Of a DNA stretch of 64,000 nt, positions 23,929 to 28,641 are shown piece after piece. The stretch is from Myxococcota bacterium (GTDB taxonomy: Bacteria; Myxococcota_A; Bradymonadia; UBA7976; UBA1532), in the NCBI GenBank assembly GCA_963169045.1, contig CAUJDF010000093.1, positions 62,001 to 126,000 of the forward strand. The letters run 5' to 3'. Every line of letters begins with the position of its first letter. Position 1 is the first letter of the stretch. The translations under genes and the position numbers were made by a program. The notes under the pieces were generated by a model, which saw only the letters and a program-made list of their open reading frames with translations, searched no databases and had not been told where the DNA came from.

Positions 23929-25764
23929 TCACCACCCCGCGCCGAATTGCTCGCGCACGGCGCGCGCGTCGAACGCGTCCACCGCGCCGTCGCGGTTGAC
24001 GTCCACGCGGTCGTCCCAGGCCGGATCCGGCGCCTCGCGGCCCTGCGCGAAGTGCACGTCGAGCAGGTCCATGCCGTCGACGACGCCCGAGAGGTCCACG
24101 TCGCCGGCGGGATCGGGACGCACGCGGCGGAACATCGTCAGGTCGGGGTCGACCTCGATCCACTGCACGGGCCCGGCGCGCAGGCGGTAGTCGGGCCCGT
24201 CCTCGAGCGCCACCGACACGGTGTCGACGGCGCCGTCGGCGAGGTGGAGCCGCAGCGGGAGCGGACCGGCGAAGGCGCCGGCGCCCTCGATCCGCAAGGC
24301 GATCGCGTCGCTCGCGCCACGCGCCGGCGCGGCCGAGAGGCGGAGCTCGGGGTGGCCCTCGCCGAAGACCCACTGGTCGAAGAACGGCCGGAGGGACGCG
24401 CCGGTGGCCGACTGCCAGAAGTCGACCAGCTCCGGTGTGGTCGCGATCTGCCCGGCGAACGCCTCCACGTAAGCGGCCATCACCGCGTCGAAGACGTCGC
24501 CGCCCAGGCGCCGTCGCAGCTGCTCGAGGACGGCGCTGCCCTTCTGGTAGGCGATCTCGAAGCGGTACGGCCCGTCGAACGCGTCGGTGCTCCACAGCGG
24601 TGCGTCGCCGACGGCGGGGACGCGCTGCAGGTAGGCCCAGTAGTTGGTGCGGAAGTGCGCGTCCGTTCCGGTGAGGCGCTCCGAGTAGCGCGTGGCGGCG
24701 AACTCGGCGAACCCCTCGGAGAGCCACAGGTCGCGCGTGTCGGCGATGGCCACCAGGTTGGCGAACCACTGGTGACCGATCTCGTGGGAGGCGACACGGC
24801 GCACGATGTCGTAGCGCGCCTCCTCGGGCGACGTCGCCCACTCGCGCTCGCGCAGGAAGATGTTGGCCTGGGGCCCGATGCCGACGCCCGCCGCGTCGTC
24901 GATCGGCGTCACGGCGAGGCGGCCGAACGGGTACGGGCCGAACATCGTCTCGAACGCGCGCATCGCGTCGGCGGCGAGCGCGCCCATCGGCGCGCCGTTC
25001 CCGGCCGCGGTCGAGGGCACGAGGAGCTCGATCGGCGCCGGCCCGTCGTCGACGCGGTGCGCGACGTACGGGCCCTGCGCCAGCGCGACGAGGGTCGTGC
25101 GCTGCTCCGTGGCGAAGCGGACGACGCGGCGGTCGCCTTCGGCGCGTTCCGACACGCGCAGCCCGATGCCCGAGGGGGCCTCGCCGCCCGGCGCCGAGAT
25201 CGTCAGGTCGACCGTGAACCGGTCGCCGAGGGGGAACTCGCCGCTCATCGGGTACCAGCCGTACTCGACGACGTGACGGAGGGCGGCGCCGGTCACGCAC
25301 GCCGAGGCGTCGGCGCAGCTCGGCGAGAACGGCGCCTCGATCGTGAAGCGGACCACCTCGCCGGCGTCCACCCGCCGCGCCAGGCCGACGAGCAGCTCGC
25401 CGCTGCCCGGATCCCGCCGGAACTCCAGGAGGTCGCCCTCCGGCGAGCGCACGGCCTCGGGCTCGAAGAAGGCCGCGAGCAGGACGAGCGCGCCCTCGAG
25501 CGGCCGTGACGCGATCAGCGACACCTCGAAGCGCGCCTCGGTCGGCAGCTCGCCGGGCCCGCCGCCGTCGAGCTCGATGGCGACGGACTGCAGGTCGTAG
25601 TCGCCCGTCTCGTCGGCCTTCCGGCGCGCGCCCTCCACGGGGGCGGGGAGGGGCCAGCGGTGGTCGAGGAGGCGCGCCCGCTCCGCCTCGGTCGCGCGCA
25701 CCGCGTCGTCGGCGCGGGCCGGCGTCGGGAGCAGCGCCAGCGCGGCGAGCGTCCACGCCCTCAC
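23929..25764 (-). CDS. M1-type metallopeptidase with C-terminal type I dockerin
   Basis: 611 residues with a signal peptide (RAWTLAALALLPTPARA). The gluzincin core shows HEIGHQW, then 18 residues, then the Glu of LSEGFAEF, the HExxHx18E zinc site of family M1. Tyr in IAYQKGSAVLEQL fits the transition-state Tyr. The exopeptidase motif GxMEN is not seen; the corresponding strand reads AAGVGIGPQANIF. The last ~60 residues are a dockerin-like pair of calcium loops: AGDVDLSGVVDGMDLLDV and RVDVNRDGAVDAFDARAV. The start is GTG 25764, overlapping the stop of the cohesin-like gene as GTGA, and it directly precedes the signal peptide; the open frame upstream of it is antisense-like. Secreted, it should dock onto a cohesin; the neighbour encodes a candidate. 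Confidence 0.85.
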   Translation of the reverse strand: MRAWTLAALALLPTPARADDAVRATEAERARLLDHRWPLPAPVEGARRKADETGDYDLQSVAIELDGGGPGELPTEARFEVSLIASRPLEGALVLLAAFFEPEAVRSPEGDLLEFRRDPGSGELLVGLARRVDAGEVVRFTIEAPFSPSCADASACVTGAALRHVVEYGWYPMSGEFPLGDRFTVDLTISAPGGEAPSGIGLRVSERAEGDRRVVRFATEQRTTLVALAQGPYVAHRVDDGPAPIELLVPSTAAGNGAPMGALAADAMRAFETMFGPYPFGRLAVTPIDDAAGVGIGPQANIFLREREWATSPEEARYDIVRRVASHEIGHQWFANLVAIADTRDLWLSEGFAEFAATRYSERLTGTDAHFRTNYWAYLQRVPAVGDAPLWSTDAFDGPYRFEIAYQKGSAVLEQLRRRLGGDVFDAVMAAYVEAFAGQIATTPELVDFWQSATGASLRPFFDQWVFGEGHPELRLSAAPARGASDAIALRIEGAGAFAGPLPLRLHLADGAVDTVSVALEDGPDYRLRAGPVQWIEVDPDLTMFRRVRPDPAGDVDLSGVVDGMDLLDVHFAQGREAPDPAWDDRVDVNRDGAVDAFDARAVREQFGAGW

Positions 25765-26603
25765 GGCGCGCTCCGGACGCGGACGCTGCCGCCCGACCAC
25801 TCGAGCCCCGGCAGCGGGCGGTTGTCGCGATTGCGCAAGGTGCGGTTCCGCAAGGGGAATTCGATGCGGCCCTCGCCCCGTCCCACGAGGCGGAAGCGCA
25901 GCGTGCACAGCGGATCGACGACCTCGCCGTCGAGGAGGCGGCCGACGGCGAGGCGGCCGGCGCCGATCTCCATCGCGAGGAAGCGATCGTCGACGGCGGG
26001 CTCGGCGCCGATGAAGCGCAGGACATTGCCGTCGTAGGCAAGGTGGAAGGCGGCGCCGCCGAGGGGCGGGAGGTCGCGCGGCAGGCGCACCTCGAGCCGG
26101 AGCTCGCCGGGGGCGGCCGGCGCGGGGATGAGCGCTGCGCCCGCGCCGACCGGGTCGGGCGTGAACTCGGCGACCAGGCGCGGGCCGGCATCGGGCGGGC
26201 CGCCGTCGAGGGGGCCGCCGTCCGGGAGCGGGACGCCGCCGTCGGGGAAGCGGTGCGGGCGGTCGGGACGGGGCGCGCCGCCGATGACCTCGAGGGCGGC
26301 CGGCGGCGTCGGGCGGCCCCGCAGCGTGACGACGACGACCTGCACGCCACGGGGCGTGTCCTCGGGGAGGCGGATGCGGATACGGTCCGACGTCCACCCG
26401 ACGGCGGGCGCCGGCAGGCCGCCGACGGACACCGCGCCGTCGCCTCCCCGGTGGTCGCCGAAGCCGCGACCCTCGACGTCGACGAGGTCGCCGGGCGCCG
26501 CGCGTTCGGGCACGAGGCGGAGGATGCGCGCTCCGCCGTCGTCGCCGCCGTGACAGGCGACGGCCAGCAGGGCGGCGATCGAGAGGAGGGTGGGGGCCCG
26601 CAT
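25761..26603 (-). CDS. lipoprotein with TIG domain and cohesin-like domain
   Basis: 280 residues. The lipobox is LLAVAC (Cys 17). Residues ~25-110 form an IPT/TIG Ig-like domain (ILRLVPERAAPGDLVDVEGRGFG). A Pro-Asp-Gly linker follows, and residues ~150-278 read as a cohesin-type beta-sandwich: LRLEVRLPRDLPPLGGAAFHLAYDGNVLRFIGAEP, an alternating middle, LCTLRFRLVGRGEGRIEF and a final GGSVRV strand. The AxFxLxYDxxVLxF pattern is the hallmark of the cohesin family. The start is ATG 26603. The gene lies 13 bp after the DUF4091 gene and overlaps the dockerin peptidase gene by four bases. It should display a docking site on the outer membrane. That the adjacent dockerin binds this cohesin is inference. 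Confidence 0.75.
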   Translation of the reverse strand: MRAPTLLSIAALLAVACHGGDDGGARILRLVPERAAPGDLVDVEGRGFGDHRGGDGAVSVGGLPAPAVGWTSDRIRIRLPEDTPRGVQVVVVTLRGRPTPPAALEVIGGAPRPDRPHRFPDGGVPLPDGGPLDGGPPDAGPRLVAEFTPDPVGAGAALIPAPAAPGELRLEVRLPRDLPPLGGAAFHLAYDGNVLRFIGAEPAVDDRFLAMEIGAGRLAVGRLLDGEVVDPLCTLRFRLVGRGEGRIEFPLRNRTLRNRDNRPLPGLEWSGGSVRVRSAP

Positions 26604-26616
26604 GCGCGAGGCGAGT

Positions 26617-28641
26617 CTACTGCAGCGCGCGGGTCCGGCGCGCGGCCGCCGTGCGACGACGCCGCAGGAGGAGCCCGAGCAGGAGGGCCGGCCAGACCGG
26701 GCCGGCGGCGCCGGTGGTCGCGCAGCCGCCGTCGGCGGGCGTGTCGTCGGCGGGCGGCGGGCCGTCGGCTGGGGGCGCGCCGTCGGCGGACGGCGGGCGG
26801 TCATCGGTCGGCGCGGCCAACCGATCGGCGATCTCGTGCCGGGCGGCCTCCCAGACGCGCGGATCGCGGCTCCACGCGCCCGGTCGCTCGTCGTCCACGA
26901 GGCCGTCGTCGAGCGCGCGCGGCACCACCGACGCGGCCACCTCGGCCGCCGCATCCCCGTCCACCACCGCCAGCAGCCGCAAGTACTCGTGGTCCTGGGC
27001 TCCGCGCCGCAGGTTCTTGAGCCGGATCGACGGCACGGGCCGCCCGTGCAGGCCCACGAAGTCGCCGCTGTAGACCAGGTACGAGTCGCCGTTGATGCGC
27101 TCGCCCACGCAGTCCGGCGACCGCCAGCACGATGGCTGCAGGCGGTCCCACTCCCAGTTCACGACGCCCGTCAGGCCGTAGCGGTAGCCCACCCAGCCCC
27201 ACGTCCGCGGCCCGAGCGCAGCGCCCTCGAGGGCGAGGCTGCCGATGGCCGGCTCGCCCGCCGTGCACGAGCTGTAGACCCAGAACTCCTCGTCCGGGTG
27301 CGCCGCGATCCGCGCGCGCGTCGCCGCCGCGTCGACGTGCCGCGCCGACGCGTTCTCGTTCCACACGTCGACGAACGCCCCGATCTCGCTGAAGATCCTC
27401 GCGACGTCCCAGCCAGGCACCTTCTCGGCCACCGTCTTGAAGTAGCCGGCGTCCAGCCGGAACTTCACGCGACCCCGCCGCGAGCCGAGCGCGTCGTCGA
27501 TCAGCCGGCCGTACGCCGCGATCAGGCCGTACGTGGCCTCGTCGCGAGGCTCGTCGAGGTTGTTCACGAAGAGGTGGGCTTCGACGCGATCGAAAGGCGG
27601 CACCGAGAGGAGGTCGACCACCTCGGCGAGCCTGCGCTTCCAGAGGTCGGGGTCCGCCGGCAGGCCGTCGACCGCCACGGGACCCGGCCAGTTGCTGTCG
27701 TGCGGCAGCACGAGCCGGCGGACCGGCGCGCCCGGCGATGGCCCCCAGTAGCCGGCCTCCGCGGTGAAGGCCTCGCCCGTGACATAGGGGCGCCACAGCG
27801 CCCGGAAGGCGTCCCAGTCGACCGTACCGGCCCGCGGGTCCGCCGGCGGCCAGAGCCACAGCGGGTCGAGCTCGAAGCGGTGCGCGTGCCCGAGCTGGAA
27901 CCACGGCCGCAGCGCCTCGGCGCCGCGCCGCCGGTAGACCTCGAACGCCAGCCCCGAGTAGCTCACGGAGCCCACGCCGGCGTGGTTCTCGCGCGGGAGC
28001 GTCACGTCGTCGACGCGGAGCTCGAGCGGCAGCGCCTCCCGGCCTTCGGCGCTCGTGACCTCCACCGCGCCGCGGTACGTGCCGGGCCGCGTCCCCTCGG
28101 GCACCAGCACGTCCACCCAGACGGCGCCGGCGGTCTGGCCGGGGATGGCGTTGTGCGCGTCGGGCACGTCGAACGGCTCGCCGAACCCCGCCGCGAGCGG
28201 CCCCTCGTCGAGCGGGATCAGCGCGTCGGGGTACCAGCCGAGACCGAGTGACGACACCCGGTGGATGCGGTCGTCGCAGAACTCCGACTCGCGCGTCACC
28301 GGCACGAACCACTCGCGGAAGCGTCGGACGACGTCGGCGGCCCGCAGGGTCGTCGGCCCCGAGAGATCGCCGACGCGGACGCGCACGCCGGTCCGGTGCG
28401 GCGCGCCGACGAGCACCTGGAACGCGACCACCTCGTTGCGAGCCGCGCGCAGACGGACCGCCCCGTCCCGCCATACGGGGTTGTCGTCGCCGTAGCCGGC
28501 GTCGACGCCGTCGCCGCGCGCCTCGTGCAGACCGCCGGTGACCGGGTCGAGGCGCACGGCGTCGTCGACGACCGTCACCTCGGCCAGGGCCGGTCCGCCG
28601 GCGGCCAGCGCGAGCGCAATCAGGGGCATGCGGATCGCCAT
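26617..28641 (-). CDS. DUF4091 glycoside-hydrolase-like protein with MYXO-CTERM tail
   Basis: 674 residues. The signal peptide is MAIRMPLIALALAAGGPALA. The body has the DUF4091/GH-like features: an N-terminal beta-sandwich (VVAFQVLV, WVDVLVPEGTRPGTYRGAVEV), then a barrel with FDRVEAHLFVNNLDEPRDE (acidic strand end) and FWVYSSCTAGEP, GVVNWEWDRLQP, and YSGDFVGLHGRPVPSIRLKNLRRGAQDHEYL, the conserved DUF4091 ending. The extreme C-terminus, after a Pro-Ala-Asp linker, is GGCATTGAAGPVWPALLLGLLLRRRR, a MYXO-CTERM-type Cys, helix and Arg cluster, which in Myxococcota directs cell-surface anchoring. The start is ATG 28641 with GGGAGG eight bases upstream. First gene of a three-gene operon with the cohesin-like lipoprotein and the dockerin peptidase. 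Confidence 0.82.
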   Translation of the reverse strand: MAIRMPLIALALAAGGPALAEVTVVDDAVRLDPVTGGLHEARGDGVDAGYGDDNPVWRDGAVRLRAARNEVVAFQVLVGAPHRTGVRVRVGDLSGPTTLRAADVVRRFREWFVPVTRESEFCDDRIHRVSSLGLGWYPDALIPLDEGPLAAGFGEPFDVPDAHNAIPGQTAGAVWVDVLVPEGTRPGTYRGAVEVTSAEGREALPLELRVDDVTLPRENHAGVGSVSYSGLAFEVYRRRGAEALRPWFQLGHAHRFELDPLWLWPPADPRAGTVDWDAFRALWRPYVTGEAFTAEAGYWGPSPGAPVRRLVLPHDSNWPGPVAVDGLPADPDLWKRRLAEVVDLLSVPPFDRVEAHLFVNNLDEPRDEATYGLIAAYGRLIDDALGSRRGRVKFRLDAGYFKTVAEKVPGWDVARIFSEIGAFVDVWNENASARHVDAAATRARIAAHPDEEFWVYSSCTAGEPAIGSLALEGAALGPRTWGWVGYRYGLTGVVNWEWDRLQPSCWRSPDCVGERINGDSYLVYSGDFVGLHGRPVPSIRLKNLRRGAQDHEYLRLLAVVDGDAAAEVAASVVPRALDDGLVDDERPGAWSRDPRVWEAARHEIADRLAAPTDDRPPSADGAPPADGPPPADDTPADGGCATTGAAGPVWPALLLGLLLRRRRTAAARRTRALQ

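Follow-up and report, generated by a model that had tools for sequence, protein, structure and literature searches.

Two adjacent genes on the minus strand of the window (the whole 64,000-nucleotide stretch of Myxococcota DNA that was analyzed) encode a lipoprotein and a secreted metallopeptidase. The genes and their features are listed here with window coordinates, strand, and the evidence for each.

25761–26603, minus strand: cohesin lipoprotein gene, 280 aa (open reading frame and match to the cohesin family profile)
26553–26603, minus strand: lipoprotein signal peptide with its lipobox, the last residue of which is Cys17 (AVAC) (sequence and lipobox rule)
26328–26525, minus strand: IPT/TIG domain, lipoprotein residues 27–92 (PF01833, E 3.9e-4; TIG-type matches in the PDB)
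25764–26180, minus strand: cohesin domain, lipoprotein residues 142–280, assigned at the family level (25-member alignment A1, whose profile matches PDB cohesins)
25761–25764, minus strand: four-nucleotide overlap, GTGA, of the lipoprotein and peptidase genes (open reading frames; the same overlap in most relatives)
23929–25764, minus strand: secreted M1-family metallopeptidase with a C-terminal dockerin, 611 aa (open reading frame and Pfam)
25711–25764, minus strand: Sec-type signal peptide of the peptidase (by eye from the sequence)
24370–24966, minus strand: Peptidase_M1 catalytic domain, residues 267–465 (PF01433, E 6.6e-24)
24874–24876, minus strand: Gly297, in the alignment column where ordinary M1 aminopeptidases have the GxMEN Glu
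24772–24786, minus strand: HEIGH zinc motif, residues 327–331 (alignment A2)
23932–24114, minus strand: dockerin, peptidase residues 551–611 (PF00404 and alignment A3)
24067–24102, minus strand: first calcium loop, DVDLSGVVDGMD (alignment A3)
23968–24003, minus strand: second calcium loop, DVNRDGAVDAFD (alignment A3)

The original prediction placed a lipoprotein gene and a peptidase gene here, overlapping by GTGA, and read the latter as a metallopeptidase with a C-terminal pair of dockerin loops. Both open reading frames are present and share positions 25761–25764, and the Pfam matches agree with that reading: PF01433 covers the catalytic domain, and Dockerin_1 (PF00404) matches residues 553–605 at 27.6 bits, above its cut-off of 22.9. 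In the surroundings of the pair, a GH123-like protein with a MYXO-CTERM-like end is encoded on the same strand (26617–28641, minus strand), 13 nt upstream of the lipoprotein gene; this gene is absent from the corresponding position in the one relative checked. On the other side, a transglutaminase-like protein (PF01841; 22204–23925, plus strand) that also matches MG2 weakly is encoded by a gene that converges on the peptidase gene at a distance of 3 nt.

The lipobox of the window lipoprotein reads MRAPTLLSIAALLAVAC followed by HGG, with the Cys at residue 17. Among the lipoproteins encoded beside M1 genes in the genomes searched (described below), a lipobox is found by rule in 48 of the 49 with a visible N-terminus and by eye in the 49th; two further proteins, cut at their start, are excluded from this count. 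Near the N-terminus, the sole Pfam assignment is the TIG domain, which the original prediction did not name and which falls 0.1 bit short of its cut-off (20.8 bits vs. 20.9). As this domain is confined to residues 27–92 and is separate from the cohesin at residues 142–280, the possibility that the beta-domain is a TIG repeat only was ruled out.

The C-terminal part of the lipoprotein, which contains AFHLAYDGNVLRF, has no PF00963 match of its own in a Pfam search and is too diverged for Pfam alone; the cohesin call on this protein therefore rests on a 25-member family. The members of this family are cohesin-like domains taken from the neighbors of M1-dockerin homologs in other genomes, and these were aligned (A1). 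A comparison of the A1 profile with the PDB gave 3l8q (ScaB, cellulosomal scaffoldin adaptor protein B) as the best match, at E 6.6e-8. Each of the 19 chains with an E value no higher than 0.7 comes from a scaffoldin or cohesin entry, and the unrelated OspA appears from E 0.8 upward. Additionally, PF00963 matches 15 of the 25 family members at E values up to 5 (best 3.9e-7), and three of them exceed Pfam's cut-off of 24.1 bits. Single-sequence structure models have a low pLDDT, both for the cohesin domain alone (34) and for the whole peptidase (38), so the fold expected of a cohesin, a nine-stranded jelly roll, rests here on the sequence profiles. The cohesin of the original prediction thus stands at the level of the family, although not from a profile match to the window protein by itself, and on the same evidence, the HMM check for an unrelated fold at this C-terminus that was proposed with the prediction favors a cohesin at the family level. 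Within the window's own genome (9.0 Mb in 109 contigs), the family profile has a single strong match, the window lipoprotein (E 3.6e-29), and it detects no second cohesin there.

In the window dockerin, both calcium loops are intact, and DVDLSGVVDGMD and DVNRDGAVDAFD each fit the dockerin calcium pattern. The first loop has the form D-x-x-x-x-G-x-x-D-G-x-D, in which the Asp and Gly positions are invariant in 24 of 24 sequences (alignment A3); in the second loop, the first and last Asp are invariant, and the remainder is degenerate in many relatives. The recognition residues of cellulosomal dockerins sit between the loop aspartates, and the invariant Gly found there in this family suggests a common binding mode that would be led by the first loop. 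A search of the window's own genome for further dockerin proteins, as had been proposed along with the original prediction, yielded two more above the cut-off: a 948-aa secreted protein (L011:7438-10281) and a 361-aa lipoprotein-like protein (L012:9291-10373), each with an internal dockerin.

The peptidase gene begins with a GTG start codon, and its product retains the M1 zinc site (HExxH with a distal Glu) as well as the catalytic Tyr. These residues, comprising the zinc ligands, the catalytic Glu, and the Tyr of the YxKG motif (H327, E328, H331, E350, and Y406), are invariant in 25 relatives (alignment A2) and are shared with the M1 aminopeptidases (PF01433), from which the window enzyme differs in its added C-terminal dockerin and in the loss of one residue. 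GxMEN is the name of a motif in M1 aminopeptidases, the Glu of which binds the free N-terminus of the substrate. This Glu is absent from all dockerin-bearing M1 family members tested (0/28 and 0/20, a total of 0/48), which have Gly, Ser, or Ala instead, whereas it is present in 84 of 85 control M1 enzymes (83 of 85 in a second alignment). The test was run without two loci in which a simple motif search missed the HExxH segment and one in which the M1 gene is cut, and on the control side it covers 85 of 87 loci, the other two having no usable segment. Because the zinc site and the catalytic Tyr are kept while the GxMEN Glu is gone, an ordinary aminopeptidase is improbable, and an ordinary M1 exopeptidase was rejected as a candidate on the absence of this Glu in 48 of 48 enzymes. 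The dockerin-bearing M1 enzymes are probably not ordinary aminopeptidases, and a probable altered specificity, of which endopeptidase activity would be the simplest form, is suggested by the alignments. These enzymes mark a branch of M1 in which the aminopeptidase signature has been lost.

We analyzed the distribution of the gene pair over several rounds of search. The first used each protein as a query against 142 relatives, and a cohesin lipoprotein gene adjoins the M1 gene in 24 of 24 M1 loci of the dockerin family in other genomes (in one of these loci, the M1 gene is truncated ahead of the dockerin). The cohesin profile alone recovered 28 of the 142 genomes, namely the 25 from which it was built and three new ones, and in all three the cohesin is beside an M1 gene. 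The third round covered 377 evenly drawn Myxococcota genomes, the 28 included, and the cohesin profile matched 53 places in 51 of these genomes. Twenty-five of the places were new, with an adjacent M1 gene in 23; one of the other two (L255) is at a contig end, and the second, which is the weakest match (L256:4960-10493 in genome G187; E 1.9e-4), has no M1 gene; there, a cohesin protein of the PEP-CTERM type is encoded next to a protein of 1645 aa whose dockerin is C-terminal. In total, an M1 gene is directly adjacent and on the same strand at 51 of the 53 cohesin places, and all 48 adjacent M1 proteins with a visible C-terminus bear a dockerin there, a count that leaves aside three M1 genes cut by a contig end as well as L255.

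The arrangement of the two genes is similarly conserved. A four-nucleotide overlap occurs in 41 of the 51 pairs (40 by script and one by hand), an overlap of one nucleotide in four, and a distance within 12 nt in six; start codons were taken as those nearest to the neighbor's stop, which biases these values toward small ones, but not to four specifically. The cohesin gene comes first in 33 pairs (families f1, f2, f11, f37, f39, and f40) and the M1 gene in 18 (families f9, f13, f15, f35, f42, and f59), and with both orders found, the adjacency has survived one or more rearrangements. Two genomes, G265 and G334, have two cohesins each, every one of them beside its own M1-dockerin. The retention of the pair in so many genomes excludes chance, with the proviso that these genomes are related to one another and do not give independent counts. 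Comparative genomics thereby greatly strengthens the original reading of a secreted peptidase with a lipoprotein receptor outside the cellulosome, and the conservation of the pair lay beyond what that prediction could know.

As controls, we used seven Myxococcota M1 loci without a dockerin and 80 M1 loci that are nearly all from other phyla, and neither a cohesin nor a dockerin was found at E<0.01 in any of these 87 loci. Furthermore, the 16 other M1 matches in the 28 genomes are all located on contigs other than that of the cohesin. In the reverse direction, the family dockerin profile (A3) was searched over the same 377 genomes, and it recovered the linked genes, a cut fragment in G250, and the C-terminal M1 part in G130, where a contig end truncates the linked M1 gene. 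It also located five additional M1-dockerin genes, in G224, G212, G108, G160, and G334. For those of G224, G212, and G334, there is no cohesin on the visible expected side, and for the other two, that side is cut by a contig end. The occurrence of unlinked M1-dockerins in at least three genomes indicates that specificity is not always one to one, and in some lineages a single cohesin may be shared by two or more enzymes. The other matches of the dockerin profile are weaker (E 1e-8 and above), and in the three weak matches inspected (G191, G302, and G243), the match to the M1 profile is limited to the dockerin end.

From these sequence comparisons, we infer that the two genes probably form a dedicated, non-cellulosomal cohesin–dockerin module that would tether the peptidase to the lipoprotein. 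The lipoprotein would be exported and lipid-anchored, with its cohesin domain as the socket, and the M1 peptidase, exported via its signal peptide, would plug its C-terminal, calcium-loaded dockerin into this cohesin. Binding would be calcium-dependent and, for the linked enzymes, predominantly one to one, and it would keep the peptidase at the membrane, with the outer membrane as the most likely location. Translation of both genes would be coupled by the four-nucleotide overlap. The enzyme is a zinc gluzincin which, having lost the Glu that in ordinary M1 aminopeptidases holds the free N-terminus of the substrate, would probably act as an endopeptidase or with an otherwise changed specificity. 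A broader and more tentative proposal is that a minimal peptidase-docking module might extend over much of the Myxococcota, in which a lipid-anchored single cohesin could act as an exchangeable surface socket for M1 endopeptidases without GxMEN; each socket would usually hold a single enzyme of its own and, in certain lineages, unlinked paralogs with the same dockerin as well.

The unlinked M1-dockerin paralogs of G224, G212, and G334 also bear on a different arrangement, in which the dockerin would bind several cohesins or other partners, and the lipoprotein next to it would be only one component of a larger multi-enzyme scaffold. The two other dockerin proteins of the window's own genome and the other large cohesin proteins of G088, G108, G100, and G130 could be accommodated in the same way. 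We consider such a scaffold unlikely, however, given that in the own genome the family profile finds one cohesin and PF00963, at E 0.05, finds none, that each lipoprotein inspected has a single cohesin, and that the other dockerins of the own genome have different residues between their loop aspartates. Alternatively, the lipoprotein could be a regulator of the peptidase and not its anchor; by binding either the dockerin or the enzyme body, it would inhibit the peptidase, help it to fold, or protect it while it is exported. Pairs of an enzyme and its chaperone or inhibitor also typically have overlapping, adjacent genes, and the mostly one-to-one pairing and the paired duplication agree with such a role. 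Yet the known role of cohesins with this fold is to receive dockerins, all 48 visible enzymes have a dockerin, and a chaperone role needs no lipid anchor, which together make regulation a distinctly improbable explanation.

It is also conceivable, if very hard to credit, that the adjacency reflects common descent only and that the C-terminal loops are structural calcium sites to which the beta-domain does not bind. The relatedness of the genomes and the sequence-based nature of all the evidence are compatible with this explanation, but the adjacency persists despite a gene order that differs between families, duplicated cohesins are accompanied by duplicated M1-dockerins, and the M1 enzymes that lack a dockerin have no cohesin neighbor.

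The tethering module proposed here resembles the clostridial cellulosome (type I/II, e.g., ScaB) in that its cohesin belongs to the same sequence family, with 3l8q as the best PDB match, and its dockerin has two loops (PF00404). In contrast to the cellulosome, it has one cohesin per lipoprotein, a lipid anchor, and an M1 peptidase as the enzyme, and no scaffoldin, cellulase, or carbohydrate-binding module is seen in the pair. Identification of the pair as a cellulosome was ruled out on the cohesin counts of the own genome given above and on a dockerin partner that is a peptidase. Cohesins and dockerins outside the cellulosome, in archaea and in other bacteria, are reportedly the subject of work by Peer et al. 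from 2009, which is cited in a later article (PMC9012536). As that article states, non-cellulosomal cohesins and dockerins occur in archaea and many microbes, and their presence in a genome alone leaves their meaning unclear (PMC9012536). The modules it covers are, like the present pair, outside cellulose breakdown and without large scaffoldins; the difference here is a fixed two-gene unit of enzyme and receptor that is kept over many families of one phylum. A second article presents the planctosome of freshwater Planctomycetes, a hypothesis in which peptidases are tethered through cohesin–dockerin contacts (PMC6461901). That model, as described there, involves M12B and M14 peptidases, large anchor/adaptor proteins, and a lamin-tail anchor, whereas the M1 enzyme is proposed here to bind a small lipoprotein directly.

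Given the planctosome proposal, the docking of peptidases via cohesin and dockerin is not a new idea; it is the conserved two-gene module of enzyme and receptor that was not found in the open-access literature searched. By title and abstract, this literature (most subscription papers are outside its scope) contained no apparent report on a pair of an M1-dockerin and a cohesin lipoprotein, or on such pairs in Myxococcota. Since the gene pairing identifies both partners at 51 places, direct tests of specificity, calcium dependence, and orthogonality are feasible, and natural variants of the pair could become new orthogonal docking pairs.

Other cohesin proteins were also observed in these genomes. 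Larger PF00963 cohesin proteins are encoded away from M1 genes in G100, G130, G088, and G108 (L217, L218, L211, and L219, respectively). In family f16 (L212:5839-6887 in G124 and L213:5051-6176 in G089), an 80-aa secreted protein that is nearly a dockerin only is encoded directly upstream of a protein of the PEP-CTERM type that matches cohesin weakly. Judging from these predicted domains, this arrangement is another type of gene pair that combines a dockerin with a cohesin.
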